Virus record (IMG/VR): IMGVR_UViG_3300010354_015978
Coordinates: 1 to 64,000 of that record
DNA length: 64,000 nucleotides
Strand: one strand, 5' to 3'
Source of the DNA: a virus
The notes under the pieces are model-generated. The model saw nothing but the letters and a program-made list of their open reading frames with translations. It made no database searches and was not told where the DNA came from. Positions 5 through 53,404 of the stretch are shown here, piece after piece. Both the position numbers and the translations under genes were made by a program. Positions within the stretch are counted from its first letter, which is position 1. Each line of letters starts with the position of its first letter.

Positions 5-3000
5 ATGGCCAAAACCACGAGACAAACAGCGATTTTTGGCGTTCAGGACTGGAAACGATTGTACCAGACCTACCGCGAGGGTGACTTTCAATCCTACGAC
101 TACGAGACCCTGCGCAAGAGTTTTGTGGACTACTTGCGATTGTATTACCCTGAAACCTTCAATGACTACATCGAGTCATCGGAGTTCATCGCGCTGTTGG
201 ACGTTATTGCATTCATGGGCCAGAGTCTTGCTTTCCGCAACGATCTCAATGCTCGCGAAAACTTTCTAGACACAGCCGAACGCCGAGACAGCGTGGTGCG
301 CTTGGCCAATCTCGTGGGTTACACACCCAAGCGCAACACCGCGGGACAGGGGTTTATCAAGTGCGTGTCGGTCAGTACCACGGAAAACATCGTGGACTTC
401 AACGGTATTAACCTCAGTAACATCACGATTTCCTGGGACGACCCCACCAACCCCAACTGGTTTGAGCAATTTACAACTATTATCAATGCAGCACTGGTAG
501 ACAGCCAGAAATTTGGACGCCCTGGCAATCGTCAGGACATCCAGAACATTGATACTAGCGAGTACACACTCAAGCTCATCCCCGGCTTCTTGCCCATAGT
601 GCCCTACAGCGCAGTGGTGGACGGCGTGAATATGCCGTTTGAAATCTGCAGCAGTAGTAGCCTGGGCAAGAATTATGTGTATGAACCTAGTCCGCGTCCC
701 GACGGCGCTTTCAACATTCTGTATCGCAACGACAATCAGGGATTTGGCTCGCCCAATACCGGATTCTTTTTCCTGTTCAAGCAGGGCGTGCTCCAGAATC
801 AAGACTTCAACTTGGCTGATGCGTTGCCCAACCGCACCGTGGACATCAACATTGAAGGTTGTAACAACGAAGATCACTGGCTGTACCAACTCAGTGACGT
901 GGGCGCCATCGCGGGCGAGTGGCTGTACGTAGACAATGTGTTCGCGGGTGCCACTGAACAGTTGGCTCCAGATCAGCGCAAGTTCTACAGCATCACCAGC
1001 CGGGCCAATGATCAAATCACACTGACTTTTGGTGACGGCGTGTTCAGTTCCATACCCGTGGGCTTGTTCCGCGCCTATGTGCGTGCCAGCAATGGTCTCC
1101 AGTACATCATCAATCCTGAAGAGATGCAGAACATCCAGATCCCCATAGCCTATACCAGTCGCCGGGGTCGCACCGAGACCATCACGTTTGTGGTCAGCAT
1201 CCAGGAGCCCGTGACCAACGCCCAGGCCCGTGAATCCTTGGACGAGATCAAGCAACGCGCACCCGCTCGTTACTACACGCAAAACCGCATGGTCAACGGC
1301 GAGGACTACAACAACTTTCCGTTTACGTTGTACAACAGCATCATCAAGAGCAAGGCCGTGGCACGCAGCAGCGTAGGTACCAGCCGCTATATTGATCTCA
1401 CTGATGTCACTGGCAAGTACAGCAGCACCAATATCTTTGCTGCTGACGGCGTATTGTATAGAGAGAACACCCTGCCCAGCGTGGAATTCTCCTGGTTGAA
1501 TCGCAACGACATCGTGGATGTGCTCAAGAACTCCGTAGAGCCTTTGATCAACAGTCGCGGCATGTTGCAGTTCTACTATGCCAACTTCCCTCGCCCGCCA
1601 CTCACAGTGATCAGCGCTCGCTGGAAGCAAAGCACCAGCATACTCAACGAGACCACAGGCTATTTCTACAGTCGCACACCCACCAATCCCTTGCCCATTG
1701 GCAGTTATACCAGCAACAATGCGCAGTATGTCACTGTGGGCAGTCTTGTCAAGTTCGTGCCACCAGCAGGATATTTCTTTGATGAGAAGAATAGACTCAA
1801 GGTAGGCACACCCACTCGCGCCAACGAGAAACTGGTACTGTGGGCCACTGTGACCAATATTGTGCTGGAAGGCACAGCACAGGGCCTGGGCAATCTACCC
1901 AATGGCATTGGTCCGGTCACGCTCAACAACTTCATCCCCAGCGAAGCCATCGCCGAACTGGTGATTCCCAAGTTTACCACAGACCTGCCGGAAAGCCTGG
2001 AATCCAGCATGATCCAGCAGATTGAACTGTATCGTGACTTTGGACTTGGCTATAACAATCTCACTGGCACCTGGTACATCATCACAGCCAGCAACCTCAA
2101 TCGTGACGCAGCGTTCAGCCGACGTTATGCACAGAACAATCAAGGACTCAACCTTGATGCATCCTGGTTGATCCAGTTTACCACGGACGGTCAGACCTAT
2201 GTGGTCATCAGCCGCAGTCTTGATTACCTATTTGCGTCGGTGTTGCAGACTAGATTCTTCTATGGAGACTCTGGTCAGATCTACGATCAAAAGACCGGCA
2301 GCGTGATCAACGACTTTATCAGTGTATTGAAGACCAATGCACAGCCCGACAACAACAATCCCTTGCCCGGTGATATCTTCATGGACATTATTGGACAACC
2401 GGTGCAAAGTGATGGCTTTGTCAATGACTACGAAGTAGTGGTGAGTTATCGCGACAGCGACGCAGACGGCGTGGCCGATGATCCTGACTTCTTTGACACA
2501 GTGGTGGCACCCAATGTTAGTTCAGCAACCAAACTGGTATTCTTCCAACAGGTCACAGACTTTGATAATCTCGAGCGATATCTCCCTTTGGAGCCCGGTG
2601 TGATCAATAGCGATTACGCCACACTTAATGACATTGAAATTGTCAAGTCTGAGTTTATCAATGGGCAACTGTTCTATGCTCGCACAGACCAGAAGTTTTA
2701 CGAACTCTTGATCGACGAAGTCAATGGCCTTTTGACACGCACCTTGGTGCCGCGCCTGGACTTCCGTGCCAGGACTGGACGCGGTGCGCTGGCATTCCAG
2801 TATCGACACAACACGCCGCTCACCAACGTCATTGATCCTGGTGCAACCAACATCGTTGACATCTATGTGGTGACCGAGGGCTACTACACCCAGTATCAAA
2901 ACTACGTCAAGGACACCACTGGCACGGTGCCCGAACCGGCACCTCCCACTATAGCGCAGCTCAACTCAGACTATGCCGAACTTAATGACTACAAAATGGT

Positions 3001-3514
3001 CAGTGACAACATCGTGCTCAATACAGTGGTGTTCAAGCCTTTGTTTGGAGCCAAGGCTCCCACTGAGCTGCGTGGCATCATCAAGGTGGTGCGAGCACAA
3101 AACACAGTGGCATCAGACAGCGAGATCAAGACGCAGGTCGTGGCTCGCATGAATGACTATTTCAGCATTGACAAGTGGGACTTTGGTGACAACTTTTACT
3201 TCAGTGAGTTAGCAGCCTATCTACACGAACGCTTGGGCAGCATCATCTCCAGCGTGGTCTTGGTGCCGTTGAATCCGCTCAAGACCTTTGGCGATCTCTA
3301 CGAGATCAGATCTGCACCCAATGAAATCTTTGTCAATGGTGCCACTGTGGCTGATGTTGAAGTCATTGATGCGCTCACACAGAGCAACATACGCAGTCAA
3401 ACACCCGTGGCTGGTTTGTATCCAGTAAATACAGTAGGCGCTGTGGACAGCGTCACTGTGGGACAGACCGGTATAGCACCGTTGACTACTAACAATAATG
3501 GCACAATGATCTGA
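5..3514 (+). CDS. T4 gp6-like baseplate wedge subunit (extended)
   Basis: Structural protein of the contractile-tail baseplate wedge. Residues about 28-115 carry the very conserved gp6 start: the YETLRKSFVDYLRLYYPE segment, then FNDYIESSEF, then a block ending NARENFLDTAERRDSVVRLA and GYTPKRN. The segment PARYYTQNRMVNGEDYNNFP near residue 420 is also typical of the family. At 1,169 aa it is far longer than T4 gp6 (about 660 aa); the extra length is mostly in the middle and C-terminal beta-rich part. The ATG at base 5 begins directly at the conserved N-terminus, so the start looks right although the upstream region is outside the window. The stop overlaps the next start (TGATG), which suggests translational coupling to the gp7-like gene, in T4 gene order. 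Confidence 0.9.
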   Translation: MAKTTRQTAIFGVQDWKRLYQTYREGDFQSYDYETLRKSFVDYLRLYYPETFNDYIESSEFIALLDVIAFMGQSLAFRNDLNARENFLDTAERRDSVVRLANLVGYTPKRNTAGQGFIKCVSVSTTENIVDFNGINLSNITISWDDPTNPNWFEQFTTIINAALVDSQKFGRPGNRQDIQNIDTSEYTLKLIPGFLPIVPYSAVVDGVNMPFEICSSSSLGKNYVYEPSPRPDGAFNILYRNDNQGFGSPNTGFFFLFKQGVLQNQDFNLADALPNRTVDINIEGCNNEDHWLYQLSDVGAIAGEWLYVDNVFAGATEQLAPDQRKFYSITSRANDQITLTFGDGVFSSIPVGLFRAYVRASNGLQYIINPEEMQNIQIPIAYTSRRGRTETITFVVSIQEPVTNAQARESLDEIKQRAPARYYTQNRMVNGEDYNNFPFTLYNSIIKSKAVARSSVGTSRYIDLTDVTGKYSSTNIFAADGVLYRENTLPSVEFSWLNRNDIVDVLKNSVEPLINSRGMLQFYYANFPRPPLTVISARWKQSTSILNETTGYFYSRTPTNPLPIGSYTSNNAQYVTVGSLVKFVPPAGYFFDEKNRLKVGTPTRANEKLVLWATVTNIVLEGTAQGLGNLPNGIGPVTLNNFIPSEAIAELVIPKFTTDLPESLESSMIQQIELYRDFGLGYNNLTGTWYIITASNLNRDAAFSRRYAQNNQGLNLDASWLIQFTTDGQTYVVISRSLDYLFASVLQTRFFYGDSGQIYDQKTGSVINDFISVLKTNAQPDNNNPLPGDIFMDIIGQPVQSDGFVNDYEVVVSYRDSDADGVADDPDFFDTVVAPNVSSATKLVFFQQVTDFDNLERYLPLEPGVINSDYATLNDIEIVKSEFINGQLFYARTDQKFYELLIDEVNGLLTRTLVPRLDFRARTGRGALAFQYRHNTPLTNVIDPGATNIVDIYVVTEGYYTQYQNYVKDTTGTVPEPAPPTIAQLNSDYAELNDYKMVSDNIVLNTVVFKPLFGAKAPTELRGIIKVVRAQNTVASDSEIKTQVVARMNDYFSIDKWDFGDNFYFSELAAYLHERLGSIISSVVLVPLNPLKTFGDLYEIRSAPNEIFVNGATVADVEVIDALTQSNIRSQTPVAGLYPVNTVGAVDSVTVGQTGIAPLTTNNNGTMI

Positions 3515-6500
3515 TGGCACTGCGCAGGACTATTGATCTATTACCGGAGATCTTCAAGACCGAGGCCACTCGGCAGTTCTTCGCCGCATCCATAGATCAA
3601 ATCGCGCAAGAGCCCAGCCTCAAACGCATACAAGGTTATGTGGGTCGCAAGGTCGGCGCCGGTGTCAACCCGCTGGACAATTACGTCACAGAGCCCACGG
3701 CCACACGCACCGACTATCAGTTAGAGCCTGGCGTGGTGTTCCTGCGTCCCGACACCAGCACAGCATTTGATGCCATAACCTATCCTGGCATGATCGATGC
3801 GCTCAATGCCAACAATGCCAACACACGCCGAGAAGATCGACTGTTTGAGCAGCAGTACTATGCCTGGGATCCTTTCTGTGATTTAGACAAGTTCAGCAAC
3901 TATAGCCAGTATTATTGGCTGGCCAATGGCCCTGATCCCGTGGATGTGTCGGCCACGGCCATACCACTGACCGATGATTTCACTGTGACACGCAATGTGT
4001 TGGACTACAATTTTTCCGGCATAGATGGCGGCAATCCAGTGATCACGCTGGCGCGTGGCGGCAGTTATAATTTTGCGGTCAATCAGCCTGGCCACAAGTT
4101 CTACATACAGACAGCACCCGGCGTCAGCGGAACTCTGCCAAGTTCGCCCAACATCAGCAGTCGCAATGTGTTGGGTGTGCTCAACAACGGTGACGACAAT
4201 GGCACGGTTCAGTTCAATGTGCCTCGCAAAGATGCGCAGAACTTTTATTTTGGGCTGGCACAACTAGACACACCCGTGGATCTCGTGACCGAGACCCTGT
4301 TGTTCAATCAAGTCAACAACGTCTACGTGGAAGACTTCCTGGCCAACAACCCAACAGGCATTGATGGCATCACTGAGCTCAACGGGCTCAACCTGGTGTT
4401 TACCAATCGCATAGGCGATGTCAACGGCGGCGGCTGGAAATACGAAAGCCAGTACGATCCCTTGATTCGTACCACGCCTGATCGCGTGGGCTATTACATC
4501 AGTTATGACATAGTTCCGCGCACCACGCCCGATCGTTACAGCACCACTGTCAGTTATGACATTGTGACACGCACCGTGGCCAATCGTGTGGCTCAAAATG
4601 AAAGTTTTGATATCGATGGCTATGGATACGACAGCAATCTACAACCCTATGCTTTTCCCATCTTGGTCACTCGCGGTCCCTTTGACCCTGCTGATGGACA
4701 GCCCGGAACCTTTGACTACGATCCACAAGACAGCAGTGAAGAATACGGCTTTGACCAGCCCGAGATAGAAGTCATAACCGGTGGCCCTGCAGATCCTCTC
4801 GACGGCACACCTGGCACGTTTGATGCCTCGCCGTATGAGCAGCCACAAGTGCTGGTGGTGTCGGGTCCGCCTGATCCCTTGGATGGACAGGAAGGCAGTT
4901 ACGACAGCTTGCCATTTGATGAGCAAACGCCCATCACTGCCCGCAATACACGTTATAGCGTGTGGCAGATCCAGTATGTCTACACCGGTGACCGGCCCTA
5001 CATGCGTCTTGCCAGCGTGGCAGATATACCCCAGGACACTCGATTCCGTGTGCGGTATGGGGCAGAATACAGCAACACCGAATGGTGGAAAGATCAAACT
5101 GGTTTCATAGTGCGTGTGCCTTCGCTCAGTGCTGTGCTGGATGAACTATGGTATCAAGACAGCAGCAACCCTGACATCTTTGGCCAGATCAAACTGGTAG
5201 ACATCGCGAATCCACAACCCATCAGCATCGATGACATCATTGGTGCCACCAACTATACCAGCCCCAACGGCGTAAAATTTACCAACGGGCTCATGATTCA
5301 GTTCCGCGGACCCACGTTCCCAGAACAGTATCGCAATCAAAAGTTCTACGTAGAGGGAGTGGGTACCGGGCCCGGAATCGGCAAGCGAGTGGGCTTTGTT
5401 GATGGCCAGGCTTACTTTGGCCCGTTCCATATCTACCAAGGTGTCAAGCTCACCGGTGCTCTGCACGACGAGACCACGTTCCAGCAGATTATCTATGACA
5501 CTGCGATAGAAAGTATCATCAACGCTGGTCGCGCTTTTACCCCGGAACGCGAAGTTGACCGCGCTCGATCCGGTCTAGGCAGCCAGGCCATTGATGGCGT
5601 GTTGAAAAACAACGGTATCATCTTGGTGCCGGTGTCGGAGATGGTGACGCCAGAGCCTTACAATCCTGATGTGCTGGAACCATTTGATGGCAATGCTGTA
5701 CTGTTGGGCACTTTTAATGTAGTCAACAGCCAGGATCCTCTCTATGTGCGCGGTGTGCGCAATGTGACCTGGGCGCCATTGTATCAATGGAATGAAAGTC
5801 TACAACAGTATGTAGAGATCAGCCAAGGCACAGAAACCTTTACGCCCGACCAGTGGGTATCAGACCGCTGGGGCGGAGGCGTGGGCTTTGACAATGGTGG
5901 TTTTGATAACACTCTCAACAGCCCCGTTACACCGGACTACATCACTATCAATCGTGCCAGCAGTGACCGCAACAGTTGGAGCCGCAACAATCGATGGTTC
6001 CACAAAGATGTCATTGCCTATACCGCTGAACTCAACAAAAACTATCCGGTCTACGACAACAATCTACGTGCCAAACGTCCCATCGTGGAGTTTAGGCCCA
6101 ACCTAAGACTGTGGAACCAAGGCACACAGGCCAAACCTGCGGTCAATGTCATTGACTTCAACACCACCGATGCCATAAGCCAGGTCAATGGACAGATTGG
6201 CTACGGTGCTGATGGTTATGAATTCCGCAACGGATCACGCATCATATTTGCCGGCGACACTGACCTACAAGTGCGCAACAAAATTTATCGCGTTGAATTT
6301 TTTGATCCCGATGACAGCGGTAAGTTGATCATACGTCTAGTGCCCGAGGTCAACAACGATGCACTGATCAATCAGACCGTGACCTGCCTCAATGGTGCCA
6401 CGCAACAAGGCAAGGTATTTTGGTTTGACGGTGCTACTTGGCTGGATGGTCAGCAGAAAACCGGTGTCAATCAGCCACCGCTGTTTGATGTCTATGATCT

Positions 6501-9500
6501 GGATGGCGTGAGCTTCAGCAATCAAGCCAAATACCCCAGCACTACTTTCCGAGGCAGTCGACTGTTTGGTTATGCTCGCGGCGAGACTGCCGTGATTGAT
6601 CCTGTCTTGGGTTTCCCTTTCAAGTATCGCAACATTGACAACATCGGCGATATCGTCTTTGAAAACTATCTCTACACCGACAAATTTGTCTACGTGCGCG
6701 ACCGCGTGAGTTACGAAATGGACGTGGGCGATGGTTTTGTAAGACAATATCAAGATCGTGTGAGTTTCTTTGATCAGATCGGTTGGCAGCCTGCGGCAGC
6801 GCGTAGTCGCCAGCGGCAGGTGTTTAGATTCATCTACAACGATGAACCACTGCTGTTGGATGTGCCCATTGACACCGCCACAGTGTTTGCGCCTGTGCAG
6901 ATGTTCATTAACGGCGTGTTTGTGGATCCCACAAAATACACTGTGACTACCACGGCGCTGAATGCTACTATTACCCTAGTTGATCCGCCGCCCGTGGGCA
7001 CAACGATTGAAGTACAGATGTTTGGACCTGAGCCCAGCGATTTTGCCTTCTATCAGATCCCAGTCAACTTGGAAAACAATGCCAGCAACGATGATCCCAT
7101 AGATTTCACGTTGGGTGGCATCCGCAATCACTACGGTACCATTGGACAGAATCTGCGCAACATTCAAGGGCCTGTCAATGGTGCCAACAACACCCGCGAC
7201 CTTGGCAACATCATTCCTTGGGGCAACAGCATCATACAAAACTCTGCGCCCTTGGTACTGCCCAGCGTGTTCTGGCGCCGCGGAGAGTTTGCTTTCTTTC
7301 AAAGTCTGGAATTCAGCAGCCGCGAGTACACCAAGTACAAGGCGCTGTTGCTGGATCTCGCGGCCAAGGGCGACTTTATCAACTACACTCCCACGCAGAT
7401 CTTGGATCTCGTGGTAGAGCAAATCAGCCTGGGCAAGACCGAACAGTTCCCATTCTATTGGTCAGACATGTTGCCTTCGGGTGATGTCTACACCGAACTC
7501 AATTATACATTCACGCCCATCAGCACCAACACCTTTGATACCACGCGCATCTATGACTTTAACAGCAGCAACTACCAAAGTGTCATGGTGTTCCTCAACG
7601 GTGAGATACTGACTCGCGATTATGACTACATTGTGCCCGACGATCGGGCCGTAGTGATCATAACACGCACTCTGCAGGATGGCGATCAGATACAACTGCG
7701 CGAATACGCCAATACCTATGGCAGTTACGTGCCCAACACGCCCACCAAGATGGGCATGTATCCCGCTTACCGACCACAGATGTACCTGGATGAGTCATTT
7801 GTTGAACCACGCATGGTTATCCGGGGACACGACGGTAGTATAACGTTTGCGTTTGGTGACTTCCGTGATCAAGTATTGCTGGAATTTGAAACTCGAATTT
7901 TCAACAACATCAAGATCAATACCCCTGTGCCCCTGATCGCACAGGATGTGATTCCGGGTCAGTTCCGCGACACTGGTTGGAGCCTCAGCGAAATCACCAG
8001 TATCATGCTGCCCAGTTTCTTGACCTGGGTGGGCCTCAACAGCATTGACTACACATCTCAGGCCTACACCGCAGGCAATCCTTTTACCTACAACTACAGT
8101 CAGAGTCAAGACAAGATCGATCGTAGACCGCTGCTGGGCAACTGGCGCGGCATCTACAATTATTTCTATGACACACTGACACCCAATCTCACACCCTGGG
8201 AAATGTTGGGCTTTACCGAACAGCCTGATTGGTGGGAAACACGCTACGGCCCAGCGCCCTATACATCAGGCAACATGGTGTTGTGGGAAGATCTAGCCGC
8301 AGGCTACATCGCAGATCCTATTGAGCCCTACTTTGATCCGCGCTTTGCGCGTCCCGGCCTGACATCAGTGATTCCTGTTGGCAGCGAAGGCGAGATTTTG
8401 AGTCCGCTCAAGAGCGTGGTGGGCAATTACGACGCCACTAGTTTCCAACGCAGCTGGACCTTTGGCGATGATGGCCCGGTAGAAAATGCCTGGCGCACCA
8501 GCAGCGTATATCCCTTTGCTGTGATGCGACTGTTGGCTTTGACACGACCTGCCGAGTTCTTTGGATTGTTTGTGGATCGCGATCGCTACAAGTTCAGTGA
8601 CACGCTGCAACAATTTGTTTGGAACGATCGCTATCGCATCAATCCCAAGGACTTGGCTCCCTTGTACGGCAGCGGCACCAGCCGAGCCAGTTACATCAAC
8701 TGGATTGTGGACTACAACCAGCAGGGCGGCACCAACAGTCAAGCCAGCCTGACTCGCGACCTAGATAATCTGGACGTAAGACTGTGCTGGCGCTTGGCTG
8801 GTTATAGCAGCAAGAATCTCCTGCAGCTCTTTACCGAGCGCAGCACACCGCAGGGAGAAAATCGCAGCCTGTTGCTGCCCGATGAAAGTTACCAACTGCT
8901 GCTGTACACCAACGTACCGCAGAACATTGTGGACTACAGCGCCTGCATGGTCATGGTGTCTGCCAACGGCTGGCAGGTGATTGGTTATGATCTACAGCGC
9001 AATTTCTTTGAAATTCTGCAGAGCAACATCGCTGGTCCCACCACAACTATCAGCGCCAACGGCAGCACCGAGCGTGTGGCCACCAGTTACCTTGACAACA
9101 TCGTGCAGGTGCCCTACGGCTTTGAGTTTACAAGCCGTGCTGCGGTCTGTGACTTCTTGTTGAGTTACGGCGCGCTATTGGAGCGCCGAGGCTTCCAATT
9201 CAACCGTACTGAAAACGGCTATCTTGTGGATTGGAAACAGATGGCCATTGAATTCCTGTACTGGAGCAATCAAGGCTGGGGTTTGGGCACAGCCATCAAC
9301 CTCAACCCCGGCGGCGTAGAACTGTTGATCACCCGACCCGGTGAGATCGCAGCACCCTTGTTCCCCACCACAGCCGGCAACTACATACTCAACCAGAACC
9401 GTGGCATAGTGCCCGCGGCCGATTTGGTGATAGAACGTGTTGACAACACGCTGCGTATCAACAGCCTGGCTGCCAATACCATAAACTACGTCAGTCTCAA

Positions 9501-12500
9501 GTTCTTTAGTTACGAACACATGGTGATACTGAACAATCGCAGTATCTTCAATGACTTGGTATACGACCCTGCCACCGGTGCTAGACAGAATCGAATTCTA
9601 GTGGCCGGTGCTGTCAGCAACGAATGGAACGGCACCGTGAACGCGCCAGGATTCGTTCTCAATCAGGACAATATACCGCAGTGGCGCCCCAATGTCAAAT
9701 ACACCAAGGGCGAAATAGTTTTGTTCAAAGACGAGTACTGGTCAGCGTCCACTATCATACAGCCCACAGCAGAGTTTGATTACAGCCAGTGGATCAAGAG
9801 CGACTATGCCGAGATCCAGAAAGGCCTGTTGCCCAACAGCCCGCTCAGCAGCAACGAGCTGGCCACGGCCTACGATGTCTACCAAGCCAACCTTGAAAGC
9901 GAAGTTGACTTGTTTAGTTTTGGTCTCATAGGCTTCCGTCCAAGACGCTACATGCAGCTCTTGGATCTCAGTGACATCAGTCAAGTCAATCTCTACAAGC
10001 AGTTCCTGAAGGACAAGGGAACCACACGGGCCACAGACATTTTCAATCTTGCCAACCTTGGCAAAGAAGTCGCACGTTATGACGTATATGAAAACTGGGC
10101 CATGCTGCGCAGCGTGTATGGCGCCAATGCCAATCGCAGTTTCTTTGAAGTGGTGCTGAACGAGGCCAATCTACAAAGCAACCCCAGTATCATACAGATT
10201 GTACAGAGCAGCGTGGATCAAAGCGAGGCTGATCAAAAGATCGTGTTGGAAGATGTTTGGAAGAGCAGTTATGCCCTGACCACGCCCAACATACTGCCAG
10301 CAACGTTGAATCCCACTGTGCCAGAGCAAGGGTTACCAACTGCTGGTTATGTCAATCTCGATGACGTGGACATCACGATATTTGATCTTGACCAGCCCAC
10401 AGATCCCACGATAACACAACAGATCAACGTGGGCACCACTATCTGGGTGGCGCGTGTCAACACTTATGATTGGAACATTTATCGTGTAGAAAAAATTCCT
10501 GCCACAGTGACGCAGATCTCCGACAACCTAGACGGTGCCAGCCTGGTGACATTTACCAGCGAACACGGACTTGGTGTGGGCGATGTCTTGATCATCAAGT
10601 ACTTCAGCACCGACGTAGATGGCTACTATCGAGTGTTGAGTGTGCCCAGCATCACCACTGTGACCATAGCATACGAATTCACCGGATTCCAGACCACGCA
10701 AGAAGGCACCGGCTTGGCCTTGACCTTGCAGACTGCGCGTGTGAGCGAGCCCAGCAAGATCAGTGAGTTGCCTTATGCCACACAACTGTTCCCTGGTGTC
10801 CGAGCTTGGGTAGACCAAGACAGCCAAGGTCGCTGGAGCGTGCTGGAAAAGACCGATGCGTTTACAGCAGGCGAAACGCTGACAGCCGAAGTACCCATAT
10901 TGGCCAGCAAGTTTGGTGGAGCCATTAGTCAAGGCTTGTTTAACCGCACAGCGTTGATTGGATCGCCGGACTACAATCCTGAAAGTCTGGCAAATCCGCC
11001 GGGCGCCATCTATAACTTTGTCAGCGATGAAGAAGAACGTCTGGTTCAAAGAAGCGCCACAGTGCTCAATGCCACTGGCGCCAGCAAATATGGATTCAGC
11101 ATCTATGTGGGCGACCAGACCTGGAGCGTGGCCGGCGCACCTGCCAGCAATGACAACGTGGGCTATGCTACCACCACCTACGTAGAACCGGGCACACAAG
11201 ATTTTACCATACGTCAGCTCTTGGTGCCGCCTGATCAAGACTTTGGTGCTGCCGAGTTTGGCTATGCGGTAAGCATGAGCGAAAATGAGCGCTGGATGTA
11301 CATTGGCGCTCCTGGCAAGAACAAGGTTTATGTTTATGATAAAGTTGACGTGCAAGAACAACGTGTTGACTATGTCAGTGATGGATTGACCAACAATTAT
11401 ACCTACAGCAACGATATAATTGTGGACTACACACAACCCGAACAGATCAGAGTGTTCGTGGATGACAACCTCTTGGATTATCAGGAAGGTGATTACACAG
11501 TCAGTGGTGGAACACTCTATTTGACTGTGGTTCCCGAGGCTGGCGCTGACATCAGCATACGTCGTAACCAAGTCACTCAGTTAGATCGTCGTGTGGTCAG
11601 TGACTATACTCCTCAGAACCTTTACGCGCCGCGGCCTCCCTTGCCCGACAGCAGCATTCCGCCCGAAGGCAGCGGCGCTGAATTTATTATAACTAACCAG
11701 CGTGGCATCTATGTGCTAGGACAAATCACCGGTGGTATTGATTACAGAGTGGACGACTTGTTGCGCGTTCCCGCCACAGACCTTGAAACACAAGACGTAC
11801 CGGCGCCGCCCAATCTCACTCCCACTTTTGTGACCAGTTCTGTGGATCTTATCACCGTAGATGACACCACCGGCATCCTGCCTGGTATGTCTGTATACGG
11901 CACAGGTTTTGTGAGCGGTCAATATGTTACATCCGTTATAAACGGTACTCAATTCATTGTGAGTGCGTTGCCAGATTCAGCACCCTCGGGCACATTGACC
12001 ATTGGTCATGATTTGCTGATTAAAATCACAGGCGTTGACACAGATGGTGCTATCCTGTCCTTTACGGCCAACACCGAAAATGCCGCATACCCCGGTGGTG
12101 TGACCACAGGGGCAGTATTTCCCTTGGACCAATATCTCTATACTGCTCAAAACATATACAGTTTCGTGGTCAACGTCAATAATCAACTTTATCGTCCACA
12201 CTTTGACTATGAATTCAACACCGACAGCGCATACAATTACCTAGAGTTGATTTTCAACACAGTGCCGCCCGCGGGCGCTACCATCACGGTCAGCAGCGAT
12301 AGTTACTACAACTTCAACCAAGTCTTGACTGTGCCCGGCCTGGCCGGCGATGCAAGATTTGGACACAGCATTTCGGTCAATCGCACAGGACAGTTGATAG
12401 CAGTAGGCGCACCTGGTGCCAACGCTGCTGCCGGTCTTGCTTATTACTTTGTACGCGCAGCCCAGGCATTCCAAGTACAGAGCACAGACACTACTACCTT

Positions 12501-15500
12501 CACCACAGTCATGAACCTAGACACTCCAGGCGCTGTGGGTGTCAGCATCAATGGTGCTTATCTGTTGCCCACCACAGACAACGTGGGAGGACAGTTTGTG
12601 GCCAGTGGCGGAAGCTCGGCACAGACTGTGACCTTGATCAATACCACGGTCAACGTTGGCGACATTGTACAAGTTGACACCAACCAAATCTCACTGGTGG
12701 CCGCAGCGGCCATGGATACACCTGTGGCTGGAAGCCAGTTTGGTTGGGACATAGATCAGTGCGTGTTTGGCTGTAGCCTGCTGGCAGGTGCACCCAACGA
12801 TCCAACCAGTATTATCGCAGGCGGCCGAGTTGAATTCTGGCAGAACATTCCCAGATACTATGGTGCCATCACTACCGAAGTCGCCAACCCCACACTGACC
12901 ATTGGCAACTACATTGCCATCAATGGCTACTATGTGGAATGTACTGGTAGCACCGTGGAACAGTTGGCCGCAGACATCGTGGCAGCGAAAATTCCTAATG
13001 TCACAGCCTATACCACACCCAACATCCAGTATCCTGGTGATAACCGCACCAAGATTTTCCCAGTGGGCAGCATTTACACAGATGCCACGTCATATACTCC
13101 TGTGGTTTACGTAGATGATGTCTTGCAAACCTTGGGCGTGGACTACACCTACGATGCCGCAGCCGAAGAGATCATCTTTGTTGTTGCACCGTTTGTAGAA
13201 ACCACGGTGACCGTGGTGTCGGGTCGATTGACCATATCGGTCAAGAATTCCGACGCTGCTACCACACTGGACAAATTGAACCTGGCTCCGGGTACCGGGA
13301 CATTGTTCGCAGATCTTGGCATCAGCATCCTGCAACGCCAGCAGATCATACGCAGCCCACGTAGCGAAGCCTTTGCTTACTTTGGTGAGAGACTCAAGCT
13401 CAGCGATGACACCTTTACACTGGTGGTAGGCGCGCCCAATGGCAGCATGGTATTGGACACAAACTTTGATCGTGGCAACACTGTGTTTGACAGTGATGGT
13501 ACCACGTTCTCCGATACTATAGCACAGAGTGGTGTGGCCTACAGTTACGACGTACTGAGCCCGGCCAATCCCAGCCCCACCAATCCCCCGCGCTTTATCT
13601 TTGGACAGCAGTTTACCGACAACAACGCTGCATCGCTGGATAGATTTGGTGCGGCCCTGGATCTCACCACTGGTCAGCTCTTGATTGGATCGCCCGGCAG
13701 TGACCTGGATGACAGCGCCTTGGCTGATTATGGCAAGGTGGCGCAGTATCGAAATCTACAGGATCTTCCGGCCTGGCTGCCGGTGCGTGTGCAGCAGCCC
13801 GAAGTGGATGTTAATCTGCTCAACACCATATTCATGTATGATCGCATCAGTGGTCAAGAAAAACAATATTTTGATTTCATGAATCCCATCCAAGGGCGAT
13901 TGTTGGGTGTGGTCAAACAAAACATAGACTATATCGGTGCTGTTGATCCTGCGTTCTACAATCAAGGACCGGTTAACAACAACGGCAGCCGTTGGGGGCA
14001 ACAGGAAGTTGGCCGCATCTGGTGGAACATAGGTAACATCCGGTACATTGACCCCAACCAGGACGACATAGTGTATGCCAGCCGACGCTGGGGACAACTA
14101 TTCCCGGGCAGCGTGGTAGAGATCTATCAGTGGGTGGTCAGCGATGTACCGCCTAGCGAATACGTGGGTCCTGGCCTAGTGTTTTCCACGCAGAGCTTCG
14201 TGGTCAGCGCCGAGATCAATGAACAAGGTTTCCTGACCACGCAATACTTCTTCTGGGTCACAGGTATCGACACGGTGAACACCGCAGCTCGCAAGACGCT
14301 CAGTACCGTGACATTGACACGTTACATCGAAAACCCCCGCGCCAGCGGCATCAGTTACCTGGCACCGCTCAGCAGCAGCGCAGTGGCCATCTTCAATGGT
14401 CTGCCCTACATCAGTGCCGAAGACACGGTGTTGCATATAGAATTTGATAGACAGTACAACGATCAACCTGTACACGTAGAATATCAGCTGATCCCAGAAA
14501 ATCGTGCGGAAGGATTCCTCAGTGAGGGACTCTACAAGAAGTTCTTGGACAGTATGTCTGGCGCAGACACCTTTGGCAATGCTGTGCCTGATCCCATGCT
14601 GACACCCAGCGAGAAATACGGTGTTCAATTCCGCCCGCGACAGAGTTTCTTTGCGAATCGCTTCTTGGCTCTCAAGAACTATATCCAGACCACCAACGCG
14701 ATCCTCAAACAAATTCCCATTGTTGAACAACGCAGGTTCAACATTCTCAACAGTTTTGATCCACCACCGGCCAAGCGCCTGGGTCTATGGGACTTGGCAT
14801 TGCCCACATTCCAAGAATTGCTGTATCAAGATCTGCGCCAAGTGCCCATCGGCTACCGCTATCTAGTGCTCAGCGACGAGACCAACAACGGTCTCTGGGA
14901 TATCTATACTGTGATCGAAGGCGATAACCCCATAGGCAAAGACCTGCGCATTACTTTGGTGCAAAACTACGACACTCGCAAATATTGGTCCTATGTAGAC
15001 TGGTATCGCCCTGGTTACAACCCCAGTTCGAGAATCGTTACAGAAGTTCGCAACGTCGCAGCCTTGGTGACCTTGGATGTGCCGGTGGGCAGCGCAGTCA
15101 AGGTTCAGTACACCAACACACCCATACGGGTGTTTGACGGCAGTGAATTTATTGACGCCGAGATAGAATTTCCAGTGGGCGGCGCGGTAAGGGTGGGTGT
15201 GCCTGGTTCCGACATCTGGGAATTGTATCAACTTGAATACGTAGACGAAGCCAATAACATCACTGAGTGGGTTCGTGTGGGCCGTAAAGACGGTACCATA
15301 CAGATATCTGACAGCATCTGGAACTACGGAATTGGTAACTTTGGTTACGATCGCGAAGCCTTTGATGCGCAGTATTTTGATCAGGCCCCCATAATTGAAA
15401 CACGCAAAATCATCGAAGCCATCAACCAAGAACTGTTTGTCGACGAGCTCTTGATTGAGCGTAATCGATTGTTGAGCTTGATGTTCAACTTCATACTCAG

Positions 15501-18500
15501 CGAGCAGCAGGCTCCCAACTGGCTGACCAAGACCAGTTTGATCAATGTCAATCACATTGTGCGAGACTTGTTGCCCTATCAGAATTACCGACGTGATAAT
15601 CAGGACTTCATACAAGATTACATCAACGAAGTCAAGCCTTATCACGTACAGATCAAAGAGTTCAGCCTCAAGTACAATGGTGAAGACATCTATCTTGGTA
15701 ACTTGACTGACTATGACCTACCGGCCTACTTTGACGTGTCAGAAAACATGTATGTGAGCCCGGTGTTGGACGACAACAATCCACCCATCTACAGCACAAC
15801 CAGCAGCATACCCAGCACCAGTCCGGTCTGGCAGACATTCCCCTACAACCAGTGGTTCAACAACTACAAACTGTCAATTGAGTCTGTCACGGTATTGGAT
15901 GGCGGATCTGGATACACTGTGCGTCCCGTGGTCACTGTGCTGGGCTCGGCTGTGCGCGCCGCGCAAATGACTGCGCGTATCAACAGCGCGGGTCAAGTGG
16001 TAGAGATCATTGTCAACGATCCCGGCGAAGGCTACAGCACCGCGGCCACCATAGTGATATCAGGCGGCAATGGCTCCGGTGCCCGTGCAGTGGCCACCAT
16101 GATCAACCCCTTGGTGCGCAGCATCAATACCACTATCAAGTACGATCGTTACCAATATCGCAGCGACATCGTGGAATGGCAGGCCAATGTAACATATCCC
16201 GCCAACACCAAGGTTCGCTATGCCAACGTAGTCTGGACCAACGCTGCTGCTATCAACACTGCAACCTTTGATCCCGACGACTGGACCAAGGTCAGTGCGG
16301 GTAGTCTCAGTGGTGTTGACCGCACCATGGGCTTCTATACGCCCACTGCCACCATGCCAGGTCTTGATCTCAGCCAACTGATATCCGGTGTAGACTATCC
16401 CGGTGTACAAGTGGCAGGTTTGGACTTTACTTTCAGCAGCGGTTTTGACGCCGGCGCCTACGTCAAGCGCAATTTTGATGTGGCCACCAGCACGGATCCA
16501 CTGTACATAGAAGGCTACAGAGACGAGACCTGGAGCCTACAGGCACCCGAAAAGGATCCGCCCAATCGTGTGTTCACACCCGCGGAGTGGGTGGCTGATC
16601 GTTGGACCGGCGGCGCAGGGTTTGACTCTGTCCCCTACGACAACTACAGCATCAGCGCCGAAGGCCTGGTCACTTATGATCCTGCCATCCTGGATGCCAT
16701 ATACGAGTCACCGTTTGACGATCCGTATCTAGGCACGCGCACCACTGACATCAACGTGGATGGCGGAGCCTTTGTTGACACCTACAGCAGCCATGCACCC
16801 GAAGAACTGGTACCGGGCATCGCGTTTGATACCCTGGACCTGCGTGTGTACACCAGCCCCGGCGATGACTGGCAAGTCAATGGTCACGGTTGGCCCCTGA
16901 GTGTGTTCAATACTTCATGGAACGTGTCCGCACCAATCGTGAGCTTCAAAGACCGATTGACCTATCCAGTCGCGGTGATTGTGTACAACCTGACCAATCG
17001 CCAGCGCTTGGATCTAGGAACTGATTACACCGTGGATTGGGTAAACTATACTATCACACCCTTCCACAATGTGGCCAATGGTGACGTCCTGTCGGTATAT
17101 GTCTACGCCCTGGGCGGCGGACACCAGATCGTGACCCGCACCCTGCTGGGCAGCGAGATGGACTACAGCAGTCTCAGTGTGCTCATGGAAGTGCCCTACA
17201 GCATCGTCACAGAGTTTGCAATATTTGCCAATGGTGTACCCATCACAGATTACACCTTTGAGCCTGCACCTGGCGCGCCCGGCTTCACGCTGATAACATT
17301 CAGCCAAAACGACAGCACGATCTTTGGCGCCGATGATCGCGTGACCATCACAGCCATGGGCGCATCGGACATCCAGCCCAATACCACCTGGAGCCTACCG
17401 CTCACACAGTATGTTGTATCAGATGGCAGCGACTTCTTTACACTCACCAACAGTCTACAAGGTGTCAATCCCATCAATCTTGTGGTGTGCAAAAACGGCA
17501 AACGTGCTCGACCCAGCCAGTGTGCTCGTTACTACGGCGATGGCACCACCACCACTTACAACTTGCCCGTGGAAGAGGGCTATGATCAAGCCATTGTGGC
17601 CGACAACGATGTGTCTGTGTACATTAACAATCGTCCCTTGACACTGGGTGTTGATTTTATTGTCAATCCCTACGATGACAGCAGCATTGAACGCACCGTG
17701 ACGCTGACCGCGACGCCGGCCACAGGCGCGGTGATCGTGATCGCAGTGAGAACAGCAGCTCAGTATTGGGTGATCGGTGACACTATTGTGTTCCAAGCTC
17801 AACAAGGACTCAAACCTGTGGTAGGCGATGTGATATCTGTGACATCCTGGAACGATACTGCGTATCAGGATCTATTGACACAGGTATTTGTGGGACCGCG
17901 CACACAGGGCATCGTGACCACACAAGGCTTTGACGACACCTTGTTTGACGAGGGCAACATCAACGAAGAGCCCGGCGCGTTTGATTACAGCGCCGGCAAC
18001 CAGATACTGAGTAATCGTTTCAATCTTGGATTTGAAGTCACCAACAACAGCCGACTCACAGTGAGCCTGGATGGCAACTTCTTGTTCCCAGATCGAGGGT
18101 TCACAGTCAGTGGACCGTTCCTGACTGTACAGGGTCCTATACTGAACAAAGCGCAGGTGTTGACTGTGACCAGTTGCACCATGCGCGTGGTACCTGCGGC
18201 ACAGAGATGGCGCATCTTCCAAGACATGCGTGGCCTACAGCGATTGTACAGGATCACTCCGCAGACCACTACCAGACTCACACAGGACTTGTCTGCCACC
18301 AGTGACATCATCCATGTAGAGGATGCCCGCAAGTTAGATATTCCGGACTTGCAGGATGGTATTTTTGGTCTCATTACCATCAACGGTGAGCGCATCGCCT
18401 ACAGAAACATTGACTACAACACCAACATCATCAGCGGGCTCAGACGAGGCACCGCCGGTACTGGCGCAGCCAATCATGTCGCAGGTGCTGAAGTCACTGA

Positions 18501-18870
18501 CATCGGACGGGGTAATCTGTTCCCGGCGTTCTATCAGAACCGAGTGCTGGCCTACGACGCCATCGGCGACGGCACTACCCTGCAATTCGAGGCCGAGGAC
18601 ATCAATCTCAACTACCTAGCAGACAGCACCGCAGTATTGGATCAAGTGGTCTTGGTATTCATCGCAGGTGAGCGCGTGACCACGGGTTACACTATTACGA
18701 ACACCTTCCCGCTGACCGTGGTGTTTGACGACCCCCCGCCCTATGGGTATCAAGTGTCCATTAGGATATATCAGGGACAAGTGTTCTACGACAACAACGG
18801 TAACCTGGTGCCCTTACAGGGCTTGAGCACAGGCGCATCTCTGTTTCTCGGTGCCCCTAGAGGAGAATAA
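3514..18870 (+). CDS. Giant gp7-like baseplate/virion protein, 5,118 aa
   Basis: Probable wedge protein in the gp7 position directly after gp6, but about five times the length of T4 gp7 (about 1,030 aa). The N-terminal 130 residues (RTIDLLPEIFKTEATRQFF; LFEQQYYAWDPFCDLDKFSNYSQYYW, here split) look like gp7-type proteins of T4-like phages. Residues about 310-475 hold two sets of short tandem repeats, built on RTTPDR/SYDI and GPxDPxDGxxGTFD. Six FG-GAP repeats ending in GAPG, GAPN or GSPG lie near residues 2523, 2579, 2946, 3073, 3287 and 3375, as in integrin-type beta-propellers. At least ten copies of a beta module (V-x-V-NG-x-L-x-x-x-DYTV ... P-x-x-G-x-x-I-x-V) are spread from residue 1128 to 5046. 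Two copies of an EWVADRW-GG-x-GFD module lie near 795 and 4365. Function as a wedge protein is inferred from position and N-terminus. The length and fused propeller are unusual. Confidence 0.8.
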   Translation: MALRRTIDLLPEIFKTEATRQFFAASIDQIAQEPSLKRIQGYVGRKVGAGVNPLDNYVTEPTATRTDYQLEPGVVFLRPDTSTAFDAITYPGMIDALNANNANTRREDRLFEQQYYAWDPFCDLDKFSNYSQYYWLANGPDPVDVSATAIPLTDDFTVTRNVLDYNFSGIDGGNPVITLARGGSYNFAVNQPGHKFYIQTAPGVSGTLPSSPNISSRNVLGVLNNGDDNGTVQFNVPRKDAQNFYFGLAQLDTPVDLVTETLLFNQVNNVYVEDFLANNPTGIDGITELNGLNLVFTNRIGDVNGGGWKYESQYDPLIRTTPDRVGYYISYDIVPRTTPDRYSTTVSYDIVTRTVANRVAQNESFDIDGYGYDSNLQPYAFPILVTRGPFDPADGQPGTFDYDPQDSSEEYGFDQPEIEVITGGPADPLDGTPGTFDASPYEQPQVLVVSGPPDPLDGQEGSYDSLPFDEQTPITARNTRYSVWQIQYVYTGDRPYMRLASVADIPQDTRFRVRYGAEYSNTEWWKDQTGFIVRVPSLSAVLDELWYQDSSNPDIFGQIKLVDIANPQPISIDDIIGATNYTSPNGVKFTNGLMIQFRGPTFPEQYRNQKFYVEGVGTGPGIGKRVGFVDGQAYFGPFHIYQGVKLTGALHDETTFQQIIYDTAIESIINAGRAFTPEREVDRARSGLGSQAIDGVLKNNGIILVPVSEMVTPEPYNPDVLEPFDGNAVLLGTFNVVNSQDPLYVRGVRNVTWAPLYQWNESLQQYVEISQGTETFTPDQWVSDRWGGGVGFDNGGFDNTLNSPVTPDYITINRASSDRNSWSRNNRWFHKDVIAYTAELNKNYPVYDNNLRAKRPIVEFRPNLRLWNQGTQAKPAVNVIDFNTTDAISQVNGQIGYGADGYEFRNGSRIIFAGDTDLQVRNKIYRVEFFDPDDSGKLIIRLVPEVNNDALINQTVTCLNGATQQGKVFWFDGATWLDGQQKTGVNQPPLFDVYDLDGVSFSNQAKYPSTTFRGSRLFGYARGETAVIDPVLGFPFKYRNIDNIGDIVFENYLYTDKFVYVRDRVSYEMDVGDGFVRQYQDRVSFFDQIGWQPAAARSRQRQVFRFIYNDEPLLLDVPIDTATVFAPVQMFINGVFVDPTKYTVTTTALNATITLVDPPPVGTTIEVQMFGPEPSDFAFYQIPVNLENNASNDDPIDFTLGGIRNHYGTIGQNLRNIQGPVNGANNTRDLGNIIPWGNSIIQNSAPLVLPSVFWRRGEFAFFQSLEFSSREYTKYKALLLDLAAKGDFINYTPTQILDLVVEQISLGKTEQFPFYWSDMLPSGDVYTELNYTFTPISTNTFDTTRIYDFNSSNYQSVMVFLNGEILTRDYDYIVPDDRAVVIITRTLQDGDQIQLREYANTYGSYVPNTPTKMGMYPAYRPQMYLDESFVEPRMVIRGHDGSITFAFGDFRDQVLLEFETRIFNNIKINTPVPLIAQDVIPGQFRDTGWSLSEITSIMLPSFLTWVGLNSIDYTSQAYTAGNPFTYNYSQSQDKIDRRPLLGNWRGIYNYFYDTLTPNLTPWEMLGFTEQPDWWETRYGPAPYTSGNMVLWEDLAAGYIADPIEPYFDPRFARPGLTSVIPVGSEGEILSPLKSVVGNYDATSFQRSWTFGDDGPVENAWRTSSVYPFAVMRLLALTRPAEFFGLFVDRDRYKFSDTLQQFVWNDRYRINPKDLAPLYGSGTSRASYINWIVDYNQQGGTNSQASLTRDLDNLDVRLCWRLAGYSSKNLLQLFTERSTPQGENRSLLLPDESYQLLLYTNVPQNIVDYSACMVMVSANGWQVIGYDLQRNFFEILQSNIAGPTTTISANGSTERVATSYLDNIVQVPYGFEFTSRAAVCDFLLSYGALLERRGFQFNRTENGYLVDWKQMAIEFLYWSNQGWGLGTAINLNPGGVELLITRPGEIAAPLFPTTAGNYILNQNRGIVPAADLVIERVDNTLRINSLAANTINYVSLKFFSYEHMVILNNRSIFNDLVYDPATGARQNRILVAGAVSNEWNGTVNAPGFVLNQDNIPQWRPNVKYTKGEIVLFKDEYWSASTIIQPTAEFDYSQWIKSDYAEIQKGLLPNSPLSSNELATAYDVYQANLESEVDLFSFGLIGFRPRRYMQLLDLSDISQVNLYKQFLKDKGTTRATDIFNLANLGKEVARYDVYENWAMLRSVYGANANRSFFEVVLNEANLQSNPSIIQIVQSSVDQSEADQKIVLEDVWKSSYALTTPNILPATLNPTVPEQGLPTAGYVNLDDVDITIFDLDQPTDPTITQQINVGTTIWVARVNTYDWNIYRVEKIPATVTQISDNLDGASLVTFTSEHGLGVGDVLIIKYFSTDVDGYYRVLSVPSITTVTIAYEFTGFQTTQEGTGLALTLQTARVSEPSKISELPYATQLFPGVRAWVDQDSQGRWSVLEKTDAFTAGETLTAEVPILASKFGGAISQGLFNRTALIGSPDYNPESLANPPGAIYNFVSDEEERLVQRSATVLNATGASKYGFSIYVGDQTWSVAGAPASNDNVGYATTTYVEPGTQDFTIRQLLVPPDQDFGAAEFGYAVSMSENERWMYIGAPGKNKVYVYDKVDVQEQRVDYVSDGLTNNYTYSNDIIVDYTQPEQIRVFVDDNLLDYQEGDYTVSGGTLYLTVVPEAGADISIRRNQVTQLDRRVVSDYTPQNLYAPRPPLPDSSIPPEGSGAEFIITNQRGIYVLGQITGGIDYRVDDLLRVPATDLETQDVPAPPNLTPTFVTSSVDLITVDDTTGILPGMSVYGTGFVSGQYVTSVINGTQFIVSALPDSAPSGTLTIGHDLLIKITGVDTDGAILSFTANTENAAYPGGVTTGAVFPLDQYLYTAQNIYSFVVNVNNQLYRPHFDYEFNTDSAYNYLELIFNTVPPAGATITVSSDSYYNFNQVLTVPGLAGDARFGHSISVNRTGQLIAVGAPGANAAAGLAYYFVRAAQAFQVQSTDTTTFTTVMNLDTPGAVGVSINGAYLLPTTDNVGGQFVASGGSSAQTVTLINTTVNVGDIVQVDTNQISLVAAAAMDTPVAGSQFGWDIDQCVFGCSLLAGAPNDPTSIIAGGRVEFWQNIPRYYGAITTEVANPTLTIGNYIAINGYYVECTGSTVEQLAADIVAAKIPNVTAYTTPNIQYPGDNRTKIFPVGSIYTDATSYTPVVYVDDVLQTLGVDYTYDAAAEEIIFVVAPFVETTVTVVSGRLTISVKNSDAATTLDKLNLAPGTGTLFADLGISILQRQQIIRSPRSEAFAYFGERLKLSDDTFTLVVGAPNGSMVLDTNFDRGNTVFDSDGTTFSDTIAQSGVAYSYDVLSPANPSPTNPPRFIFGQQFTDNNAASLDRFGAALDLTTGQLLIGSPGSDLDDSALADYGKVAQYRNLQDLPAWLPVRVQQPEVDVNLLNTIFMYDRISGQEKQYFDFMNPIQGRLLGVVKQNIDYIGAVDPAFYNQGPVNNNGSRWGQQEVGRIWWNIGNIRYIDPNQDDIVYASRRWGQLFPGSVVEIYQWVVSDVPPSEYVGPGLVFSTQSFVVSAEINEQGFLTTQYFFWVTGIDTVNTAARKTLSTVTLTRYIENPRASGISYLAPLSSSAVAIFNGLPYISAEDTVLHIEFDRQYNDQPVHVEYQLIPENRAEGFLSEGLYKKFLDSMSGADTFGNAVPDPMLTPSEKYGVQFRPRQSFFANRFLALKNYIQTTNAILKQIPIVEQRRFNILNSFDPPPAKRLGLWDLALPTFQELLYQDLRQVPIGYRYLVLSDETNNGLWDIYTVIEGDNPIGKDLRITLVQNYDTRKYWSYVDWYRPGYNPSSRIVTEVRNVAALVTLDVPVGSAVKVQYTNTPIRVFDGSEFIDAEIEFPVGGAVRVGVPGSDIWELYQLEYVDEANNITEWVRVGRKDGTIQISDSIWNYGIGNFGYDREAFDAQYFDQAPIIETRKIIEAINQELFVDELLIERNRLLSLMFNFILSEQQAPNWLTKTSLINVNHIVRDLLPYQNYRRDNQDFIQDYINEVKPYHVQIKEFSLKYNGEDIYLGNLTDYDLPAYFDVSENMYVSPVLDDNNPPIYSTTSSIPSTSPVWQTFPYNQWFNNYKLSIESVTVLDGGSGYTVRPVVTVLGSAVRAAQMTARINSAGQVVEIIVNDPGEGYSTAATIVISGGNGSGARAVATMINPLVRSINTTIKYDRYQYRSDIVEWQANVTYPANTKVRYANVVWTNAAAINTATFDPDDWTKVSAGSLSGVDRTMGFYTPTATMPGLDLSQLISGVDYPGVQVAGLDFTFSSGFDAGAYVKRNFDVATSTDPLYIEGYRDETWSLQAPEKDPPNRVFTPAEWVADRWTGGAGFDSVPYDNYSISAEGLVTYDPAILDAIYESPFDDPYLGTRTTDINVDGGAFVDTYSSHAPEELVPGIAFDTLDLRVYTSPGDDWQVNGHGWPLSVFNTSWNVSAPIVSFKDRLTYPVAVIVYNLTNRQRLDLGTDYTVDWVNYTITPFHNVANGDVLSVYVYALGGGHQIVTRTLLGSEMDYSSLSVLMEVPYSIVTEFAIFANGVPITDYTFEPAPGAPGFTLITFSQNDSTIFGADDRVTITAMGASDIQPNTTWSLPLTQYVVSDGSDFFTLTNSLQGVNPINLVVCKNGKRARPSQCARYYGDGTTTTYNLPVEEGYDQAIVADNDVSVYINNRPLTLGVDFIVNPYDDSSIERTVTLTATPATGAVIVIAVRTAAQYWVIGDTIVFQAQQGLKPVVGDVISVTSWNDTAYQDLLTQVFVGPRTQGIVTTQGFDDTLFDEGNINEEPGAFDYSAGNQILSNRFNLGFEVTNNSRLTVSLDGNFLFPDRGFTVSGPFLTVQGPILNKAQVLTVTSCTMRVVPAAQRWRIFQDMRGLQRLYRITPQTTTRLTQDLSATSDIIHVEDARKLDIPDLQDGIFGLITINGERIAYRNIDYNTNIISGLRRGTAGTGAANHVAGAEVTDIGRGNLFPAFYQNRVLAYDAIGDGTTLQFEAEDINLNYLADSTAVLDQVVLVFIAGERVTTGYTITNTFPLTVVFDDPPPYGYQVSIRIYQGQVFYDNNGNLVPLQGLSTGASLFLGAPRGE

Positions 18871-18874
18871 ATAG

Positions 18875-19042
18875 ATGATGCACAAAGACCAAGATCAAAC
18901 ACCCCCTGAGCCCAATAAAGTTGAGGCTGAGCCAGCACCAGAACCGCGTCGTCCTGACGACCGGGGATCAGTGCATATTGATGGCTTTGTGCGAATATTT
19001 GATCCCAACACCCAGCAGGTGTTTTTAGAGACCCGTACATGA
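18875..19042 (+). CDS. 55-aa protein, short paralogue of the next gene's N-terminus
   Basis: Small protein beginning MMHKDQDQTPPEPNKVE. The first 30 residues are Pro/Glu/Arg rich and probably disordered. The last 25 (VHIDGFVRIFDPNTQQVF) match the N-terminus of the following protein (VTIQGFLKIYDPNNGEIF) in length and pattern, so this is either a split-off copy of that N-terminal strand or a partner peptide. The ATG lies 4 bases after the giant gene's stop, with AGAGGAGAATAA as a ribosome site. The stop overlaps the next ATG in an ATGA junction, which supports translation. It has no recognisable family. Function unknown; a small structural or assembly role is inferred from position. Confidence 0.65.
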   Translation: MMHKDQDQTPPEPNKVEAEPAPEPRRPDDRGSVHIDGFVRIFDPNTQQVFLETRT

Positions 19043-19641
19043 ACAACGTACCCGTTACAATCCAAGGTTTTCTCAAGATCTACGACCCCAACAACGGGGA
19101 AATATTCGTGGACAAAAAGAACGCTATACATTATGAAAACATGAGCTTGGCTCTGGCACAGAGCCTGGCCAACAAAAACCTTGGTTTCATCTATGGCATG
19201 GCTTTTGGCAATGGCGGCAGCGCCGTGGACCAAACAGGTATCATCACTTACCTACCGCCCAATACCACCGGGCAAAATGCCAATCTTTACAACCAGACTT
19301 TTTTCAAAGTCGTGGACGATGCCAGCGCAGCCAATACTGATCCTGCTCGCAACAAGCTCACGGTGCTGCACACCGCTGGCACGGTATACACTGATGTTTT
19401 AGTGAGCTGCCTCTTGGATTACGGTGAGCCTGCTGGTCAGCAGGCCTTTGACAACAGCACCAACTTCAACGGCGAATTTGTGTTTGATGAGCTCGGGCTC
19501 AAGGGCTGGGAAGGCGCACCATCTAATCTGTTGTTGCTGACCCACGTGATTTTCCACCCTGTACAGAAGAGCCTGAACCGACAGATACAGATAGATTACA
19601 CTGTGCGCATACAAACTTTGACCAATTTAAGTGCGGCATAA
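19039..19641 (+). CDS. Virion structural protein, 200 aa, unknown role
   Basis: Encoded between the gp7-like giant and two fibre-type genes, so a baseplate or tail-associated role is likely. It starts MNNVPVTIQGFLKIYDPN, followed by a predicted beta-rich body with a Gly/Asn-rich segment (IYGMAFGNGGSAVDQTG) and a C-terminal strand-rich part ending in QIDYTVRIQTLTNLSAA. There is no signal peptide, membrane segment or catalytic motif. The ATG overlaps the stop of the 55-aa paralogue by 4 bases. It is not similar to T4 gp8, which normally follows gp7. Structural assignment rests on context only. Confidence 0.7.
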   Translation: MNNVPVTIQGFLKIYDPNNGEIFVDKKNAIHYENMSLALAQSLANKNLGFIYGMAFGNGGSAVDQTGIITYLPPNTTGQNANLYNQTFFKVVDDASAANTDPARNKLTVLHTAGTVYTDVLVSCLLDYGEPAGQQAFDNSTNFNGEFVFDELGLKGWEGAPSNLLLLTHVIFHPVQKSLNRQIQIDYTVRIQTLTNLSAA

Positions 19642-53080: not shown

Positions 53081-53106
53081 GTATAGATTTATCACCTAGT
53101 CAAGGC

Positions 53107-53128: not shown

Positions 53129-53139
53129 GGGAAGTTTCT

Positions 53140-53400: not shown

Positions 53401-53404
53401 ATAA

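Follow-up and report, generated by a model that had tools for sequence, protein, structure and literature searches.

What is the giant protein encoded directly behind a gp6-type baseplate wedge gene in this virus, and what would a beta-propeller be doing inside it? The window, by which we mean the whole stretch of 64,000 nucleotides analysed, comes from a virus record in IMG/VR that is 110,675 bases long. The genes in question are as follows.

5..3514, + strand: gp6-type baseplate wedge subunit, 1,169 aa (phrog_10646, E 7.9e-287; phrog_219, E 3.9e-26)
3514..18870, + strand: giant gp7-position virion protein, ATG start, 5,118 aa, stop-free (568 kDa, pI 4.4)
19039..19641, + strand: downstream neighbour, 200-aa protein of phrog_11259 (E 1.8e-71), kept in 52/55 testable loci
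19691..21394, + strand: 567-aa fibre-like protein with a weak Peptidase_G2 match, a relative of which lies downstream in 50/55 testable loci

The uninterrupted 15.4-kb frame described in the original prediction is real, being backed by 59 whole frames at homologous positions in the first 80 IMG/VR relatives. Its assignment to the gp7 position also held, as a gp6-type gene lies directly upstream in 79/79 testable loci and overlaps the giant gene by one base in the window. Whole giant frames in two sets of IMG/VR loci, leaving out a few short, apparently broken ones, range from 4.2 to 5.3 kaa, so that 5,118 aa is ordinary for the clade. Exceptional length was thus rejected as a peculiarity of the window phage; great length is a family trait. 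Relatives are found on contigs of up to 347 kb (locus L267), which fits a jumbo phage.

Searches of PHROGs identified the family. Both halves of the giant matched the phrog_10938 profile (E 3.8e-208 and 2.8e-66), and by profile similarity the protein is a member of this group of virion structural proteins of RaK2-like jumbo phages, whose named members are RaK2 gp465, CBB_236, PA5oct gp355 and Atu_ph07 gp180. In annotated records, the giant directly follows gp6 in Phosso, Atu_ph07, PA5oct, RaK2, BF, PBECO4, XaC1 and CBB, and it has an equivalent location in SCTP-2 and Vibrio phage 2.275.O. Lengths of the cultured giants are 4,555 aa (Phosso), 4,449 (Atu_ph07), 3,857 (PA5oct), 3,807 (SCTP-2), 3,771 (Vibrio phage 2.275.O), 3,340 (CBB), 3,339 (BF), 3,333 (PBECO4), 3,332 (XaC1) and 3,326 (RaK2). 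Presence in the virion is documented by mass spectrometry for the PA5oct and CBB versions only: the PA5oct giant carries an ESI-MS/MS mark in its record, and CBB_236, which adjoins the gp6 gene CBB_237, was detected in CBB virions with 21 peptides (PMC5259590). At least 589 IMG/VR stretches are related to the second core block of the protein.

The window giant resembles the cultured phrog_10938 giants in its place after gp6 and in three conserved blocks that BLAST found to be common to them (residues 1-150, 805-2340 and 3420-4080), but the cultured proteins are shorter (3.3-4.6 kaa) and are without FG-GAP blades. The parts of the window protein outside the propeller are the following.

3514..3963, + strand: conserved N-terminal domain, residues 1-150 (26-36% identity in RaK2-like jumbo phages)
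3961..4461, + strand: tentative cupredoxin-like beta-sandwich, first part, residues ~150-316 (aligned model range to 564)
5926..7683, + strand: conserved core block 1, residues 805-1390 (common to RaK2, PA5oct, Atu_ph07, Phosso, BF and SCTP-2)
7696..10533, + strand: conserved core block 2, residues 1395-2340
13771..15753, + strand: conserved core block 3, residues 3420-4080 (24-30% identity in cultured RaK2-like phages)
15766..18867, + strand: C-terminal region, residues 4085-5118, with beta modules at 4483, 4565 (marginal), 4690, 4840 and 5044

Structure prediction was of little help at the N-terminal end. AlphaFold2 gave a poor model of residues 1-1190 (pLDDT 56, with residues 1-130 below 50), and because the model is poor, a missing structural match in this region is no evidence either way. 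The one structural hint within it, a tentative one, is a cupredoxin-like sandwich that starts near residue 150, with a VIA Z score of 9.3 (2.2 A over 91 residues) that lies little above background. A phmmer search of the PDB with both halves of the giant returned no matches, and profiles A3, A4 and A5 found no credible relative there. Two inserts, at 4465-4866 (residues 318-451) and 5416-5880 (residues 635-789), are absent from many relatives; the former contains short internal repeats (RTTPDR...SYDIV; DPLDG.PG.FD). CBM5/12-like stretches were also observed at 9682-9840 (a motif match at residue 2057) and at 16174-16239 (a sub-threshold Pfam CBM_5_12 match, residues 4221-4242, E 0.011).

The giant had been predicted to be gp7-like, and beyond gene position this part of the prediction was not supported. 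T4 gp7 (phrog_964) shares with the window giant a gene position directly after gp6, but it is 1,032 aa long and we detected no sequence or profile relationship between the two. When residues 1-150, 1395-1900 and 3405-4080 were compared by hhalign with every part of T4 gp7, the probability was 0.5% or less throughout, so that at the sequence level the N-terminus has no gp7 match. A profile of the whole family reached only E 0.39 against 26 T4-type gp7 proteins, and phrog_964 is absent from the giant's PHROGs matches. The positive control for the hhalign comparison was a cyanophage protein, S-PM2p084, a 3,048-aa giant at the gp7 position of S-PM2 (L119:29072-38218), whose N-terminus matched the helical region of T4 gp7 at 55%. 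Such cyanophage giants (S-PM2p084; phrog_4406, phrog_2885 and phrog_701) resemble the window protein in being giant virion proteins right after gp6 and in having small modules in common with its C-terminal region. They differ in their N-terminus, which carries a T4 gp7-like region undetected in the window giant, and S-PM2p084-type giants, unlike the window giant, lack the FG-GAP family among their matches. The gene order and the S-PM2 example would both suit a body truly homologous to gp7 that inserted domains have enlarged fivefold, an idea compatible with any reading of the propeller; given the near-zero hhalign probabilities beside a 55% control, and the E value of the family profile, we consider it rather unlikely. 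A gp7 domain may be absent from the giant or too diverged to recognise. Since none of the three conserved blocks examined shows gp7 homology, "gp7" is used here for a position and not for a demonstrated family, and a label that implied homology is corrected accordingly for these giants.

The propeller cassette separates core block 2 from core block 3.

10864..13770, + strand: propeller cassette, residues 2451-3419, predicted seven-bladed FG-GAP beta-propeller with inserted beta modules
10906..10977, + strand: FG-GAP blade motif 1, residues 2465-2488 (motif start 2467; blade HMM E 2.3e-7)
11080..11151, + strand: FG-GAP blade motif 2, residues 2523-2546 (motif start 2526; blade HMM E 1.1e-6)
11248..11322, + strand: FG-GAP blade motif 3, residues 2579-2603 (motif start 2582; blade HMM E 4.1e-10)
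12349..12426, + strand: FG-GAP blade motif 4, residues 2946-2971 (motif start 2949; blade HMM E 1.2e-6)
12727..12801, + strand: FG-GAP blade motif 5, residues 3072-3096 (motif start 3076; blade HMM E 6.4e-9)
13381..13446, + strand: FG-GAP blade motif 6, residues 3290-3311 (motif start 3290; E 5.6e-3 in the window protein)
13636..13704, + strand: FG-GAP blade motif 7, residues 3375-3397 (motif start 3378; blade HMM E 4.7e-7)

The original prediction counted six FG-GAP motifs at residues 2523-3375. The FG-GAP assignment is sound, but there are seven motifs in a region of about 2451-3419, motif 1 having been missed. A strict FG-GAP regular expression matched the window protein six times, whereas shuffled proteins averaged 0.01 matches each; in the column of blade motif 6, 26 strict motifs were counted across the clade proteins that were searched. 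Pfam FG-GAP_2 scored 37.3 bits on the window giant (cut-off 23) and was matched by 40/40 members.

AlphaFold2, given 40 sequences, modelled residues 2395-3440 with a pLDDT of 87.4 and a pTM of 0.85. VIA-align placed the model on integrin alpha-M with a Z score of 36.5 (2.8 A over 360 residues, 18% identity); integrins fill the match list, and Foldseek agrees, its matches including in addition a cyanophage A4 portal-tail chain. Residues 2451-3419 are thus confidently predicted to form a seven-bladed, integrin-alpha-type FG-GAP propeller. The embedded propeller had been foreseen correctly, and the region did not model as an unrelated fold. Searched against the PDB, profile A1 gave sub-significant matches alone, with integrin alpha-M at the top (E 0.035). 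Seven blades, FG-GAP motifs and fold are all as in the propeller of integrin alpha subunits; the window propeller is unlike it in its low identity (18%), in the beta modules within its inter-blade loops, in belonging to a phage protein and in being without a calcium loop. No DxDxDG-type calcium loop was found in residues 2395-3440 of the window giant, and the domain is therefore an FG-GAP propeller by fold, not an integrin; 9/40 members have a single DxDxDG-type motif, located ahead of blade 1. Blade 5 contains a CxxxC cysteine pair (DQCVFGCS; residues 3083-3087, window 12760-12774) that is nearly invariant in 40 aligned sequences.

Small beta modules recur through the protein. In addition to those of the C-terminal region, they are located as follows.

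6868..7017, + strand: beta module, residues 1119-1168 (module HMM E 3e-9)
7531..7695, + strand: beta module, residues 1340-1394 (module HMM E 4e-11)
11398..11565, + strand: beta module, residues 2629-2684, between blades 3 and 4 (module HMM E 2e-10)
12115..12294, + strand: beta module, residues 2868-2927, between blades 3 and 4 (module HMM E 2e-13)
12499..12675, + strand: beta module, residues 2996-3054, between blades 4 and 5 (module HMM E 9e-3)
13054..13218, + strand: beta module, residues 3181-3235, between blades 5 and 6 (module HMM E 4e-12)

An iterated HMM found ten modules at E < 0.01 and one marginal copy in the window giant and had no matches in reversed sequences, so the predicted number of at least ten was right; 4/11 of them sit in inter-blade loops. 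The modules weakly resemble Pfam Phage_T7_tail and DUF2460. Phage_T7_tail, of the T7 gp17 N-terminal type, was matched weakly in 6/40 members (best E 2.6e-5), and one member scored separately against it gave 23 bits, below the cut-off of 25.2.

The distribution of the propeller was then compared with the phylogeny of its carriers. A maximum likelihood tree of core block 2 unites the window with the uncultured rows in one clade of 61 rows (100/100 support, stem length 1.47). SCTP-2 adjoins this clade on a long branch, which leaves its exact place unsure. The propeller is present in 60/61 rows of the clade and changes state twice on the tree, against a mean of 9.5 changes when shuffled. FG-GAP blades number zero in the ten cultured giants; the place of the propeller holds 87 aa in BF, about 274 aa in PA5oct and, in Atu_ph07 and Phosso, about 1,515 aa in which Pfam has no confident domain. 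A tblastn search with the propeller region returned no match in 50,697 phage records, and the propeller profile had none in a species-genome collection of bacteria and archaea. As far as searched, the propeller appears to be confined to one large uncultured clade. Family, propeller fold and distribution, taken jointly, are very probably correct as described.

The single exception within the clade is L192, in which residue 2450 of the window giant is joined to residue 3420 through a 23-residue linker. This clean junction sets the borders of the cassette. By this evidence the propeller is a discrete insert, naturally and cleanly absent from L192, although L192 is a single contig and could be an assembly fault. 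L192 offers a natural comparison for the function of the domain.

We propose, with a probability of roughly 60% for the explanation as a whole, that the giant is a scaffold bearing a co-inherited peripheral propeller, which acts as a binding or docking platform. Given that all of these phages conserve three blocks and that the gene comes right after gp6, the blocks (1-150, 805-2340 and 3420-4080) would most likely form a wedge scaffold beside gp6, at the place of T4 gp7, a proposal that draws on synteny and conservation and includes a presumed contact with gp6. The roughly 970-residue block that separates core blocks 2 and 3 in the uncultured clade folds, according to the model, into the propeller disc, with small beta modules of tail-fibre type occupying its inter-blade loops. 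Probably present in six copies, the disc would project from the wedge as an exposed, rigid binding platform. A further virion component, for example a fibre or an accessory protein, may dock on it, or it may instead hold a surface ligand that is conserved in the host group.

The way in which the propeller is inherited bears on this proposal and on its competitors. Propeller distances follow those of the N-terminal domain and the core (Spearman 0.79-0.85), and in 80/80 further propeller loci the core lies in the same frame of a giant. Judged by these distances, the propeller is inherited together with the core and is not exchanged. Mean identity is 43% in the propeller and 55-60% in the core blocks, so that it is more variable than any of them; greater variability combined with tracking of the core fits an exposed part inherited with its scaffold.

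Integrin-type propellers are ligand-binding domains. This, the variability of the propeller relative to the core and the weak T7 tail-fibre matches of the beta modules in 6/40 members would suit a true host-receptor-binding domain that fixes host range and was added to the wedge, replacing the fibres or working beside them. Frequent exchange of such a domain should decouple it from the core, yet the correlation reaches 0.85, all 80 loci keep the propeller in the same giant, and L192 is without it. Co-inheritance makes a frequently swapped receptor-binding domain unlikely, and we regard a role in fixing host range as decidedly unlikely. The original prediction that the wedge had absorbed receptor-binding or adhesive domains thus stands in part: a wedge-adjacent giant has added beta domains and a discrete propeller insert, but the propeller is co-inherited with the core and frequent swapping is improbable. 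For the tape-measure role that the original prediction also suggested, no pointer emerged from the results.

Phage tails also employ propellers as building parts, an example being the T7 nozzle. Co-inheritance with the core fits a purely structural role as well, and together with the A4 portal-tail chain among the Foldseek matches it would favour a purely architectural brace, one that gives a larger baseplate its stiffness and has no binding partner beyond its own protein. A brace is harder to reconcile with a propeller more variable than any core block, with its absence from L192 and with the ten cultured relatives, alike in overall design, in which it was not found, and we judge it improbable. 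Returning to the platform proposal, a binding role for the propeller, suggested by fold and evolution, has slightly less than even odds. A further reading, put forward tentatively and less likely than not, is that in this large uncultured jumbo-phage clade a ligand-binding propeller of integrin type has become part of the wedge scaffold; the baseplate itself, beyond the fibres, would then sense the host or dock fibres via a conserved platform.

Neither the protein family nor the FG-GAP fold is novel in itself, and BFVD contains FG-GAP proteins from uncultured phages and giant viruses; the propeller is the new part. We found no report in the open-access literature of FG-GAP in a virion structural protein or of a beta-propeller in a baseplate, and an integrin-alpha-type propeller as a clade-wide, separable cassette in a wedge-position giant appears to be undescribed there. 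It illustrates that such a propeller can be embedded in a protein at the baseplate wedge position, and it provides an architectural trait with clean borders that is diagnostic for a jumbo-phage clade located in more than 500 IMG/VR stretches and without cultured members in the collection searched.

Other features of the window lie further downstream. A radical-SAM region extends over 25463-38739, 44378-46442 and 59755-61314. It includes five radical-SAM or SPASM proteins in a + strand run, accompanied by an epimerase and a carbamoyltransferase. The - strand carries more epimerase and aminotransferase genes, and an additional radical-SAM gene is located at 59755-61314. In Atu_ph07 and Phosso, radical-SAM genes likewise lie a few genes past the giant. 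The window also encodes a phage tmRNA at 53078-53431 (- strand; tag ANDDLYALAA), followed by 24 tRNA genes at 54971-63556.
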